DNA from: Tepidiforma sp. | GTDB taxonomy: Bacteria > Chloroflexota > Dehalococcoidia > Tepidiformales > Tepidiformaceae | Assembly: GCA_026003935.1 (NCBI GenBank) | Contig: BPIE01000002.1 | Span: 1 to 64,000, forward strand | Direction: 5' to 3' | Length of the DNA stretch: 64,000 nt | Shown: positions 40,661-45,164 of the stretch, one piece after another | Numbering within the stretch: position 1 is the stretch's first letter | Layout of the letters: each line of letters begins with the position of its first letter | The notes under the pieces: model-generated | Told to the model about the DNA's origin: nothing | The model's database searches: none | The model's input: the letters and a program-made list of their open reading frames with translations, nothing else | Position numbers and translations under genes: made by a program

Positions 40661-42190
40661 ATGCTCGCGCGCGTCCTGAGCTGTGCGGTGGTCGGGCTCG
40701 ATGGCGAGCTCGTCGAAGTCGAGATCGATATCACCCGGGCGCAGCTCCCGGCCATGACGGTCGTTGGACTGCCCGATACCGCCGTGCAAGAGTCGCGAGA
40801 GCGGGTCCGCGCTGCGATTCGCAATAGCGGGCTTGGCTGGCCCGCGAACAACCGCCTGACGGTAAATCTTGCCCCCGCCGACCTGCGCAAGGAAGGGCCC
40901 GCGTACGACCTTCCCATTGCGGTCGGCATCCTGGCAGCATCCGGGCAGGTCACGGCCGACATCGATGACGCGGCGTTTCTCGGGGAGCTGGCGCTGACAG
41001 GCGGCGTGCGGCCCGTCAGGGGTGTGCTGCCCATGGCCATGACCGCGGCGGCCCGGGGCCTGCGTCGCTTGTTCGTGCCGGCGGACAACGCCGCGGAGGC
41101 GGCGCTGGTCGAGGAGCTCGAGGTCTACCCGGTCCCTTCGCTGACAGCGCTCGTTGGACATCTGAATGGCGCGGTCCCGCTGCCGCGTTTCATCACCAAC
41201 GGTTCCTCGCCCGAGGACCCGTTCGCCGGGTTGGCAACCGACTTCGCGGATATCGTCGGGCAGGAGCACGTGAAGCGGGCGTTGGAAGTCGCGGCTGCTG
41301 GGGGACACAACCTGGTCATGAAGGGCCCGCCGGGGAGCGGCAAGACGCTGCTCGCCCGGGCAGTGCCGGGAATCCTCCCACCGCTCACCAGCGCCGAGGC
41401 GATGGAGGTCACCCGCATCTACAGCGTGGCGGGGCTGCTCCCGCCGGGGGGAGGGCTTATCTCGTCGAGGCCGTTCCGGTCGCCGCACCATACCATTTCG
41501 AATGCGGGACTCGTCGGCGGCGGGTCGGTGCCGCGGCCGGGCGAGATCACTCTTGCTCACCGCGGCGTGCTGTTTCTCGATGAGCTCCTCGAGTTTGACC
41601 CGCATGTGCTGGAGATGCTTCGGCAGCCGCTCGAAGACAAGACCGTCACGATCTCCCGCGCGAAGCAGGCGGTAACGTTTCCCGCAAGCTTCATGCTGTG
41701 TGGGGCGCTAAATCCCTGCCCGTGCGGCTACCTTGGCGACCCCGAACGTCCCTGCAGCTGCCCCCCCGCAGTCGTGAGCCGGTATCAACGGCGTCTCAGC
41801 GGGCCGCTCATGGACCGCATCGACCTGTTTGTCGATGTGCCCCGGGTGCCGATCGAGAAGCTGACGGCAGCGACGCGCGGCGAACCAAGCGCAGCGGTGC
41901 GCCAGCGGGTTGCCGCTGCCCGGGAACGACAGGCGGCGAGATTCGCCGGCACCCGGACCGCAACGAACGGGGAAATGTCACCCGCGCAGGTGCGTGACTT
42001 CGTGCAGGCGCGGCTCGAACCGGCAGCTGCAGAGCTGCTGAAGCGAGCAGTGGAACGGCTCAATCTCTCGGCGCGGGCCTTTCACCGGGTTCTCAAGGTG
42101 GCGAGGACGATCGCAGACCTAGCCGGTGACGATGGCATCGGCGCTGCTCATATGGCAGAAAGCATCCAGTACCGGGCCCGGCTCGACTAA
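40661..42190 (+). CDS. comM: ComM/YifB-family Mg chelatase-like AAA+ ATPase
   Basis: 509 residues. The N-terminal Lon-like domain (VVGLPDTAVQESRERVRAAIRNSG) is followed by an AAA+ module: Walker A GPPGSGKTLLARA, Walker B VLFLDELLEF, the sensor region and a zinc-binding CGYLGDPERPCSCPP loop. The C-terminal part (ALNPCPCGYLG..., AFHRVLKVARTIADL) is typical. ComM promotes branch migration during natural transformation in other bacteria. No other competence gene is present in the window, so its role here is assumed from the family. Confidence 0.94.
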   Translation: MLARVLSCAVVGLDGELVEVEIDITRAQLPAMTVVGLPDTAVQESRERVRAAIRNSGLGWPANNRLTVNLAPADLRKEGPAYDLPIAVGILAASGQVTADIDDAAFLGELALTGGVRPVRGVLPMAMTAAARGLRRLFVPADNAAEAALVEELEVYPVPSLTALVGHLNGAVPLPRFITNGSSPEDPFAGLATDFADIVGQEHVKRALEVAAAGGHNLVMKGPPGSGKTLLARAVPGILPPLTSAEAMEVTRIYSVAGLLPPGGGLISSRPFRSPHHTISNAGLVGGGSVPRPGEITLAHRGVLFLDELLEFDPHVLEMLRQPLEDKTVTISRAKQAVTFPASFMLCGALNPCPCGYLGDPERPCSCPPAVVSRYQRRLSGPLMDRIDLFVDVPRVPIEKLTAATRGEPSAAVRQRVAAARERQAARFAGTRTATNGEMSPAQVRDFVQARLEPAAAELLKRAVERLNLSARAFHRVLKVARTIADLAGDDGIGAAHMAESIQYRARLD

Positions 42191-42202: not shown

Positions 42203-42490
42203 CTAAGAAGGATCATCCGGGCGGCGTGGCGTACCCTGGCCGAACGCCTCCATGAACTGACGAAACGCATCGGGGCTTGCCCACGCGAAAGCCGCCTCGC
42301 GGGCACGCTCGACCCAATCATCAAATTCGCCGGCCGCCTCTGCGGCGAGTTCCCCAAGGCGCACGTTAGCCTCGGCCAGGGCTGCGGCGGCAGCGAAAAG
42401 TTCGGACCAGCGCTGCAGGACGACCGCATACTGGCGCCCAAACTCCAGTGCGCGCCCGGTGGGAACGAGCGGAGAGGAACGGCGCGGCAT
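42203..42490 (-). CDS. Small helical (phasin-like) protein, unknown function
   Basis: 95 residues from ATG 42490; TATACT lies 6 nt before it and the track start is upstream of it. The protein is nearly all helix with Ala, Glu, Leu and aromatic positions (RQYAVVLQRWSELFAAAAAL..., EFDDWVERAREAAFAW), reminiscent of phasins or coiled-coil scaffold proteins. No enzyme motif. It is divergent from the small membrane protein gene at 42611, and its promoter shares the region with the LexA-box-like sites. Confidence 0.6.
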   Translation of the reverse strand: MPRRSSPLVPTGRALEFGRQYAVVLQRWSELFAAAAALAEANVRLGELAAEAAGEFDDWVERAREAAFAWASPDAFRQFMEAFGQGTPRRPDDPS

Positions 42491-42496
42491 GGCGGC

Positions 42497-42502
42497 AGTA
42501 TA
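42497..42502 (-). promoter_or_regulatory. -10 hexamer TATACT, leaderless, for the 95-aa gene
   Basis: On the minus strand TATACT, GCCGCC, ATG 42490. The -35 position would fall on the weakest LexA-like box (42517-42530). Confidence 0.5.
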
Positions 42503-42516
42503 CGCTGAGCGACGGC

Positions 42517-42606
42517 ACGACATGTGTTGACGACTTTCGAACATTTGTGTTGACCGTCGCACATCTGTTCGCCTAAGCTTTCGCCAGTCTTTCGAACGGA
42601 TGTACG
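42517..42606 (+). promoter_or_regulatory. Cluster of LexA (SOS) box-like sites
   Basis: Compared by eye with the Gram-positive-type LexA consensus CGAACATATGTTCG: CGCACATCTGTTCG at 42558-42571 matches 12 of 14, CGAACGGATGTACG at 42593-42606 11 of 14, CGAACATTTGTGTT at 42538-42551 10 of 14, and a weaker one at 42517-42530 matches mainly the core. Starts are spaced 21, 20 and 35 bp. The first two strong positions overlap the -35 box and fill the spacer of the plus-strand promoter. Confidence 0.6.
42550..42579 (+). promoter_or_regulatory. Promoter of the 67-aa membrane protein gene
   Basis: TTGACC (42550-42555), 18-bp spacer, TAAGCT (42574-42579), giving a start near 42586 and a leader of about 25 nt. 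LexA-like box 2 lies exactly in the spacer. Confidence 0.55.
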
Positions 42607-42610
42607 CATC

Positions 42611-42814
42611 ATGGTCAACCCAGTCCTCACCATCCTTGTCGACCTTGTGCTCGTCGGCGGCGCGCTGAGCATTCTCGCGGTCATGGTTACTGAAGCCGTC
42701 GTCGACCGCAGGCCGCGGGTAGGCGGCAGGCGCAACCCTGCCGTCCGGCAGGCCTCCCGGCGCCGAGCCGGCCGGCCGGTTTACCTCACCGTGGGTGCGA
42801 GGCGAGTCGCGTAG
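42611..42814 (+). CDS. Small single-span membrane protein, candidate SOS-induced protein
   Basis: 67 residues. One TM helix at about 5-27 (VLTILVDLVLVGGALSILAVMV), then a strongly basic tail (RRPRVGGRRNPAVRQASRRRAGRP), so the N-terminus probably faces outward and the tail inward. No homologous family is recognised. Its promoter is covered by LexA-box-like sites. Small single-span membrane proteins under LexA control (SidA, YneA and similar) stop cell division after DNA damage in other bacteria; that is the proposed analogy, not a homology claim. Relies on regulation and size for interest. Confidence 0.65.
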   Translation: MVNPVLTILVDLVLVGGALSILAVMVTEAVVDRRPRVGGRRNPAVRQASRRRAGRPVYLTVGARRVA

Positions 42815-42817
42815 CCG

Positions 42818-45088
42818 TTAGGGAATGGCCCCGCGAACAGGAGCCGCGGCCTGCCCCTCCTCCGGGAGCTGCTTGCGCCTCCGCTCCTGTACGCGCTCGA
42901 CGGAACGCACGCCCCGGACGATCTCGATGCGGGAGAGAAGCCGGGAGAGCTGTTCGACGCCGGTCGTCTCAAGGGTCGCGGTGATGGTCACGGACCCATC
43001 ACCATTTTCGATGGTCCGCACCCCGACCATGTTGACTTTTTCGTCGGTAACGACCGTCGTGATATCGCGAAGGAGACCGACACGGTCCCAGGCCTCGATG
43101 CGCACCGAGACGGGGTACGTTCTGGTGACAGTGCCCCATTCGACTTCGACGATTCTTTCCCGCTCGGCTTCGTTCAGCACGTTGAGGCAATCGGCCCGGT
43201 GCACGCTGACGCCGCGCGCACGCGTGACGTAGCCAATAATTTGGTCGCCGGGGACAGGATTGCAGCAGCGGGCCATGGTTGTCAGGAGATTTCCTACTCC
43301 CAGGACGCGCATGCCCGGGCCGCCGAGCTTTGCAGGCTCCAGCTTTTGGGGCAGTTCTGGCGGCCCTTCGGCTTCGGCTTCCTCGCGCTCGATGATGGCG
43401 GCCACCTTGCGAGCAATGCTGTTGGTCGAGATGCCGCCGTACCCAATGGCAGCGAGGAAGTCATCCCAGGTGCTGTAGTTGAAAAGCTGGAGAAGCTGCT
43501 CCTGCTTGTCCGTCGCTTCCCAGCCAAGCCGTTTGAGCTCCTTCTCGAGCATCTCACGGCCCCGCTCGATGTTCTCGGCCCGCTCCTGCTTTCGAAACCA
43601 CTGCCGAATCTTTTCCCGCGAGTGTGCCGTCCTGATGTAGCCGAGGTGCTGGTTCAGCCAATCGCGCGACGGACCCTTGCTCGTGCGGCTGCGAACGATT
43701 TCGACCACGTCGCCAGTCTTCAGCGTCGAGTTGAGCGGGACCATTCGGCCGTTGACCTTGGCGCCGATGGTCTGGTGGCCGAGGTCGGTGTGGATTCGGT
43801 ACGCGAAATCGAGCGGCGTTGCGCCGGCAGGCAGGTCGAGCACGTCTCCCTTGGGTGTATAGACGAAGACCTGGTCGTGGAAGATGTCGGTCTTGACGGA
43901 TTCGACGAACTCGTCGGCACCGGTGAGGTCGCGCTGCCACTCGATGAGCTGCCTGAGCCACGCGATACGCTCCTCGTCGCGGCTGGCAGGACGGCCGCCC
44001 TCTTTGTATCGCCAGTGAGCGGCGACACCGTACTCCGCGACGCGGTGCATCTCCCACGTGCGAATCTGAATTTCGAGGGGCCGTCCGCCCGGCCCGACCA
44101 CGGTGGTGTGGAGCGACTGGTACATCGAGTCTTTCGGGTTCCCGATGTAATCGTCGAACTGTCCCGGGATTGGCCGCCAGAGAGCGTGAATGACGCCGAG
44201 CGCGTGGTAACAGTCTGTAACGGTGTCAACGAAGACGCGCATAGCGAGAAGGTCGTAGATCTGGTCGAAGCTCTTCGCCTGCGCCGAGTACCGCTGCATC
44301 TTCTGGAAGATGCTGTAGATGTGCTTGGCGCGCCCGGTGATTTCAGCTTTGATACCGGCGGCTTCGAGGTGCTCCTTGAGGATTTCCGAAGCCTCGGCAA
44401 TGACGCGCTCACGGGTCACGCGCTTCGAGGCGAGGAGCTCGGCAATTTCCCGGTATTTCTCGGGTTCAAGATAGCGGAAGGCGAGGTCCTCGAGTTCCCA
44501 CTTGATTTGCCAGACGCCGAGGCGGCTCGCGAGCGGCGCAAAGATTTCCATGGTTTCGCGCGCAATTCGCCGCTGCTTCTCGGGCGGGAAGGCCCAGAGG
44601 GTGCGCATGTTGTGGAGCCTGTCGCAGAGCTTGATCAGCACCACGCTCAAGTCCTCGGCCATAGCGAGGAACATCTTGCGCAGGTTTTGGGCCTGGGTGG
44701 TCCCGCGCATGGGGTCGAGGTCTGCGACATTCATCGGCATCTTGTCGAGCTTGGTCAGTGCGTCGACAAGCCGAGCGACGCGAGGCCCAAAGCGGTCGGC
44801 AATCTCCTGGTTGGCGACCCCGCAGTCTTCCTGGACGTCGTGCAGGAGCGCAGCAGCAATGGCGAGGTGGTCGAGTTCAAGGTTCGCGACGAGCTCGGCG
44901 ACAGCTACCGGGTGGGTGATGAATGGGTCGCCGGTCTTGCGGAGCTGACCTTCATGGTGACGGGCGGCGAACTCGAAGGCCTCGCGGATGATGTCGAGCC
45001 GCTCAGCGGGAAGGTACTGTCCGGCGCGTTCAAGGAGAGCGTCGATCGAGACGCTGGCTACAGCGGGCTCTCCTTGGCTCACGGACAT
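42818..45088 (-). CDS. relA: Bifunctional (p)ppGpp synthetase/hydrolase (RelA/SpoT family)
   Basis: 756 residues. HD hydrolase domain (HPVAVAELVANLELDHLAIAAALLHDVQED, with the HD pair), synthetase domain (YSIFQKMQRYSAQ..., RVFVDTVTDCYHALGVIHALWRPIPGQFDDYIG..., YQSLHTTVVGP), TGS domain (FVYTPKGDVLDLPAGATPLDFAYRIH) and a C-terminal zinc-finger/ACT region (YPVSVRIEAWDRVGLLRDIT). Both active sites look intact, so it should make and degrade the stringent alarmone. Start ATG 45088 with AAGAGG about 9 nt upstream; the track start at 45139 lies within TAGGAT. Divergent from hisS. Confidence 0.95.
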   Translation of the reverse strand: MSVSQGEPAVASVSIDALLERAGQYLPAERLDIIREAFEFAARHHEGQLRKTGDPFITHPVAVAELVANLELDHLAIAAALLHDVQEDCGVANQEIADRFGPRVARLVDALTKLDKMPMNVADLDPMRGTTQAQNLRKMFLAMAEDLSVVLIKLCDRLHNMRTLWAFPPEKQRRIARETMEIFAPLASRLGVWQIKWELEDLAFRYLEPEKYREIAELLASKRVTRERVIAEASEILKEHLEAAGIKAEITGRAKHIYSIFQKMQRYSAQAKSFDQIYDLLAMRVFVDTVTDCYHALGVIHALWRPIPGQFDDYIGNPKDSMYQSLHTTVVGPGGRPLEIQIRTWEMHRVAEYGVAAHWRYKEGGRPASRDEERIAWLRQLIEWQRDLTGADEFVESVKTDIFHDQVFVYTPKGDVLDLPAGATPLDFAYRIHTDLGHQTIGAKVNGRMVPLNSTLKTGDVVEIVRSRTSKGPSRDWLNQHLGYIRTAHSREKIRQWFRKQERAENIERGREMLEKELKRLGWEATDKQEQLLQLFNYSTWDDFLAAIGYGGISTNSIARKVAAIIEREEAEAEGPPELPQKLEPAKLGGPGMRVLGVGNLLTTMARCCNPVPGDQIIGYVTRARGVSVHRADCLNVLNEAERERIVEVEWGTVTRTYPVSVRIEAWDRVGLLRDITTVVTDEKVNMVGVRTIENGDGSVTITATLETTGVEQLSRLLSRIEIVRGVRSVERVQERRRKQLPEEGQAAAPVRGAIP

Positions 45089-45164
45089 GGGCGTCGGCCT
45101 CTTTGCCGGGGCAAACCTTCTTTTTATCCTAACATGCATTCAGCCCCGCACGTCAGGACCTTCG

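Follow-up and report, generated by a model that had tools for sequence, protein, structure and literature searches.

We identified a small gene in a Tepidiforma genome (positions 42611-42814, plus strand, of the 64,000-nucleotide stretch analyzed, here called the window) whose product is a predicted SOS effector, a 67-amino-acid (aa) membrane protein with a single helix. Control of this gene by LexA, and thus by the SOS response, is well supported by the sequence of its promoter. We give a probability of roughly one half to the reading that the protein is a LexA-repressed inhibitor of cell division, which acts via its helix on a divisome protein and is removed by proteolysis; a division role taken alone stands at about even odds. 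The host genome is 1.6 Mb in size and about 73% complete, and the small gene lies on its contig C2.

The open reading frame named in the original prediction was confirmed at these coordinates. Within the genus, the pN/pS of the protein is 0.11-0.48 and the changes are mostly synonymous, and by this measure the protein is under purifying selection. The homologues and the pN/pS values rule out a noise ORF, and on this evidence the 67-aa gene is a real gene. Its neighbors are a ComM/YifB-type Mg-chelatase gene (comM, 40661-42190) and rel (42818-45139, minus strand), which converges on it. The gap between the two convergent genes is 3 bp (window positions 42812-42820), and a short gap at this place was seen again in several relatives. 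No intrinsic terminator was found between them, and transcription of rel may therefore continue antisense across the 67-aa gene. On the other side is a small divergent gene of about 95 codons (42203-42490, minus strand, with its ATG at about 42490). It is kept in several relatives at 42-72% identity and had no match in Pfam or NCBIfam. Its apparent -10 element, TATACT (minus strand, about 42497-42502), is only about 7 nt from the ATG, which suggests a leaderless mRNA.

The promoter of the 67-aa gene was read directly as TTGACC (-35, 42550-42555) and TAAGCT (-10, 42574-42579) on the plus strand, separated by a spacer of 18, as originally predicted. The -35 box is TTGACA in most relatives and its position is conserved, and the -10 box has TAGGCT-, TACGCT- or TATGCT-like forms in relatives. 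Three LexA sites, all on the plus strand, are stacked on this promoter. Site A (CGAACATTTGTGTT, 42538-42551) overlaps the -35 box and is similar to the recA-type boxes of the family (AGAACATTTGTTT). Site B (CGCACATCTGTTCG, 42558-42571) fills the spacer between -35 and -10 and differs from the Gram-positive-type LexA consensus CGAACATATGTTCG at 2 of 14 positions. Both placements, and the two mismatches of the best site, agree with what had been claimed. Site C (CGAACGGATGTACG, 42593-42606) covers the ribosome-binding region, and its reverse complement (CGTACATCCGTTCG) is one base apart from the box of the host lexA gene (CGAACATCCGTTCG). Within site C, GGATGT (42597-42602) agrees with GGAGGT at five of six positions, and 6-9 nt separate its end from the start codon; on account of this likeness and distance site C probably doubles as the Shine-Dalgarno or ribosome-binding site. 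Four LexA-like sites had been predicted, of which these three stood and the fourth did not: the latter (CGACATGTGTTGACG, about 42517-42531) has a matrix score below 2, and in relatives, too, it does not resemble a LexA site. It is more likely the -35 region of the divergent minus-strand gene.

The motif check suggested with the original prediction was run with a matrix built from the lexA and recA promoter sites of relatives only, leaving out the promoter of the 67-aa gene. In the family, the lexA promoters have CGAACATCCGTTCG or a close variant of it, which begins some 30-37 nt upstream of the start of lexA, and the recA promoters carry AGAACATTTGTTT, AGAACAAATGTTT, AGAACATCTGTTCC and others; the host recA promoter's own box is AGAACACATGTAC. 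Upstream of the LexA box, the lexA promoters of the family (L001, L042-L070) also have GTTC[CG]GAACA followed by TTGACGATAA, possibly a second operator plus a -35 box. When 1.57 Mb of the host genome (about 97%, with about 40 kb of small contigs outside the scan) was searched with this matrix, sites A, B and C scored 16.8, 16.6 and 15.4 and ranked 9, 11 and 17 among all positions. Most of the remaining top positions belong to classical SOS genes, and the best-scoring of them precede imuB, dnaE2, lexA, ruvB, recA, mutS, lhr, sbcD, dinB and uvrA. Genes behind the top sites were identified using Pfam, and the names imuB, dnaE2 and sbcD are based on domain and N-terminal sequence. The strong LexA-like sites before mutS and the lhr-type helicase (C1:72659 and C1:313024) could be real, which would make these genes unusual SOS members, or could be chance.

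As a control, we scanned six second-order Markov genomes of the same size and composition as the host. Each gave 5-9 hits scoring at least 15.4, compared with 17 in the real genome, and single hits therefore call for caution. None of the six ever produced the three-site cluster, and in the scanned genome the promoter of the 67-aa gene is the sole 100-bp stretch with at least two sites scoring at least 12. The occurrence of the three sites together is not chance. The predicted LexA control was thus upheld at the level of sequence, by the motif match, the conservation of the sites and the SOS genes among the top positions.

A protein search detected about 21 homologues within Tepidiformaceae, including those in Tepidiforma flava, a Tepidiforma MAG and Dehalococcoidia MAGs. 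When profile, operator-pattern and site-C-pattern searches were added, homologues were found in 33 of 38 Tepidiformaceae genomes, and the triple operator recurs along with the protein. No copy was detected in the other five, one of which (G018) is 97% complete, indicating that the gene is not essential to the lineage. The pattern searches also returned extra GAACGGATGT matches in G009 and G014, which have no coding sequence behind them, and extra site-A matches in G006, G007 and G035, which do not belong to the 67-aa gene. Outside the family, nothing convincing was found among 393 genomes of the class and 400 of the phylum, scoring the best 14 candidates per genome, a depth at which very distant forms could escape. 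The protein had no match in Pfam, NCBIfam, PHROG or PADLOC, and PDB profile matches at E values of 0.1-1 were weak and not accepted as homology. The claim that the protein is lineage-specific and undescribed is supported by its one-family range and by the lack of matches in these four databases. An origin from phage or plasmids was rejected, based on the absence of tblastn matches in phage and plasmid collections, the absence of a PHROG match and a position on the chromosome, next to comM and rel, that is conserved.

Comparison of upstream regions, the second check that had been suggested, revealed that the triple operator is kept at fixed spacing in 32 aligned relatives. Site A scores at least 12 in 30 of the 32. 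A and B are 20 bp, or two helical turns, apart in 28 of them, and B and C are 32-36 bp apart in almost every one, a spacing that puts all three sites on roughly one face of the DNA. Among the homologues that the protein search alone had detected, all except one have GAACGGATGT as site C, and the GGAT center of this site is far less variable than the centers of A and B (in a set partly chosen by motif). In one genus (g13) the protein has strongly diverged and only the N-terminal helix can be aligned, with the operators retained. In combination, the 67-aa gene has an operator that matches the lexA/recA motif of the family, overlaps its promoter and has been kept in relatives.

AlphaFold predicted one helix (residues 4-32, pLDDT about 90) followed by a disordered tail, and the hydropathy maximum of 2.6 spans residues 8-26. 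These results and the charge counts agree with the prediction of one transmembrane (TM) segment and a basic tail. In an alignment of 34 sequences T7 is invariant (34/34), position 11 is D in 29, Q in four and E in one, and L14 and A18 are nearly invariant. Together with I21 and M25, these residues share one face of the helix. The conservation periodicity at 100 degrees has a modest p-value (permutation p = 0.04, with sequences that are related to one another). The conserved face fits a role in helix-helix recognition.

All homologues have 8-18 K/R versus 2-6 D/E, with the K/R nearly all in the tail, and in nearly every member the N-terminus is free of charged side chains. Under the positive-inside rule, a short, nearly uncharged N-terminus and an Arg-rich tail predict a cytoplasmic tail, and the topology is probably N-out/C-in. 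The likeness to YneA and SosA that had been proposed therefore holds for the small size and single TM segment, and probably fails for the topology, which would be opposite. The tail of 35-40 residues is unconserved except for its basic composition and its last residues. The final two residues are [AVI][AS] in 28 of 34 sequences, compared with 5.5% of long host ORFs. The ends include -RRVA, -RRAA and -LAA, with many in -VA or -AS and not the canonical -LAA. The host tmRNA tag ends in RQLALAA, and given this and the conserved end, the C-terminus may be a ClpXP-type C-degron, which is no more than a reasonable guess. The host tmRNA gene was missed by ARAGORN and detected using Rfam RF00023, and tmRNA tags in the family end in RQLALAA or EDRELALAA.

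Three stacked LexA sites imply that the product must be off in healthy cells, and several observations bear on what it might do when made. SulA was absent from all 38 family genomes searched, the 67-aa protein does not contain a SulA domain (no Pfam match), and no division inhibitor was found among the other identified predicted LexA targets of the host. The slot of a division checkpoint thus appears otherwise empty. The search for small hydrophobic ORFs behind strong LexA sites left the 67-aa gene as the only convincing case, and its product is a small single-TM protein under predicted LexA control; another such ORF, opposite uvrA, was set aside for its doubtful frame. Three genes of the FtsW/RodA family occur in the host genome, and Tepidiforma is a monoderm with peptidoglycan synthesis genes (PMC10284905). 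In other phyla, unrelated small membrane proteins block the late divisome, often at FtsW (PMC13396833, PMC4211646, PMC6851548). Considering the empty slot, these analogues, the FtsW/RodA genes and the conserved helix face together, division inhibition is the best single explanation.

We envisage that LexA, bound to three sites of one promoter, would keep the gene silent, and that after DNA damage RecA would trigger LexA cleavage and the protein would be made. Such damage induction in vivo is what the operators predict. The protein would insert into the membrane in such a way that its tail is cytoplasmic, and the conserved helix face would bind a polytopic divisome protein, with FtsW as the likeliest candidate partner, so that division would halt. 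Proteolysis via the conserved C-terminal end would then allow division to resume.

YneA of Bacillus subtilis and ChiZ of Mycobacterium tuberculosis are likewise small, SOS-linked proteins with one TM segment. YneA acts through its TM segment on TM7 of FtsW, and the same is predicted for SidA, ChiZ and SosA (PMC13396833). In contrast to YneA and ChiZ, the 67-aa protein has no LysM domain (Pfam and NCBIfam, with a disordered tail); its tail is basic, disordered and predicted to be cytoplasmic, whereas theirs are extracellular, and it had no family match by sequence. SosA of Staphylococcus aureus is closer in having 77 aa, one TM segment (10-30) and no LysM domain, and its C-terminus controls its turnover (PMC6851548). 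However, the C-termini of YneA and SosA are extracellular (PMC6851548, PMC13396833), and in SosA the membrane-proximal part is conserved, whereas the tail of the 67-aa protein is variable and predicted to be cytoplasmic. The predicted C-in topology counts against the division reading, as YneA, ChiZ and SosA need their extracellular part for activity. SidA (29 aa) and DidA (71 aa) of Caulobacter crescentus are single-TM inhibitors of FtsW or FtsN (PMC4211646). SidA is SOS-induced, whereas DidA is not SOS-controlled. The likeness to these two is one of size and role only, and SidA is too short to carry a long basic tail. Tentatively, and with the chances a little short of even, we propose a new family of SOS division inhibitors that would be defined by a reversed orientation, a cytoplasmic basic tail, a conserved polar helix face and three LexA boxes in its operator, the third of which would also serve as the ribosome-binding site.

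One alternative starts from the tail. The protein may be induced in the SOS response as a membrane adaptor or regulator that has some other target; its tail might bind nucleic acid or anionic lipid, or it might modulate a membrane protease or transporter during repair, as the strong basic charge of all homologues, located in a predicted cytoplasmic and disordered tail, would suit. This we consider rather unlikely, as it is the helix that is conserved and not the tail sequence, save for composition and the last residues.

The main named rival is a membrane toxin like TisB or DinQ of Escherichia coli, which would cause depolarization and dormancy with no specific division block. These too are small membrane peptides under SOS control, and two LexA operators lie over the dinQ promoter (PMC3567139). 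The charged residue D11 inside the helix of the 67-aa protein would suit a toxin, and read-through from rel, which ends on the opposite strand across a 3-bp gap where no intrinsic terminator was found, could supply an antisense RNA. However, TisB and DinQ are shorter and belong to type I toxin-antitoxin loci, which have processed leaders and antisense RNAs, and the DinQ ORF begins 139 nt from its operator, whereas the 67-aa gene has no long processed leader, its start codon being about 25 nt from the predicted transcription start site. Moreover, site C covers the ribosome-binding region, the leader and the first part of the coding region show no more structure than shuffled sequences (z +1.5), and the 27-residue DinQ has nothing like the 35-40-residue basic tail with its conserved end. 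The short leader and the long tail weaken the toxin reading, which we hold to be unlikely, but antisense control from rel may still operate. That the gene is not SOS-regulated, with sites that are accidental or serve another repressor, is highly improbable, for although some top motif matches are expected by chance, here three sites within 69 bp match an independent lexA/recA motif and are kept in sequence and spacing in 32 relatives, and the ORF is under purifying selection.

SOS division inhibitors have arisen repeatedly as unrelated small membrane proteins. A limited literature search found no report of one in Chloroflexota, and if the division-inhibitor reading is true, this would be, to our knowledge, the first such family in the phylum. 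The family has a cultured genus, Tepidiforma, and its predicted LexA regulon is recognizable, so the prediction can be tested directly. The operator itself would illustrate cleanly, in nature, how stacked LexA sites can give tight repression, with one of the sites lying at the translation start. If the protein is indeed a C-in inhibitor, it would mean that blocking the late divisome does not require an extracellular part.
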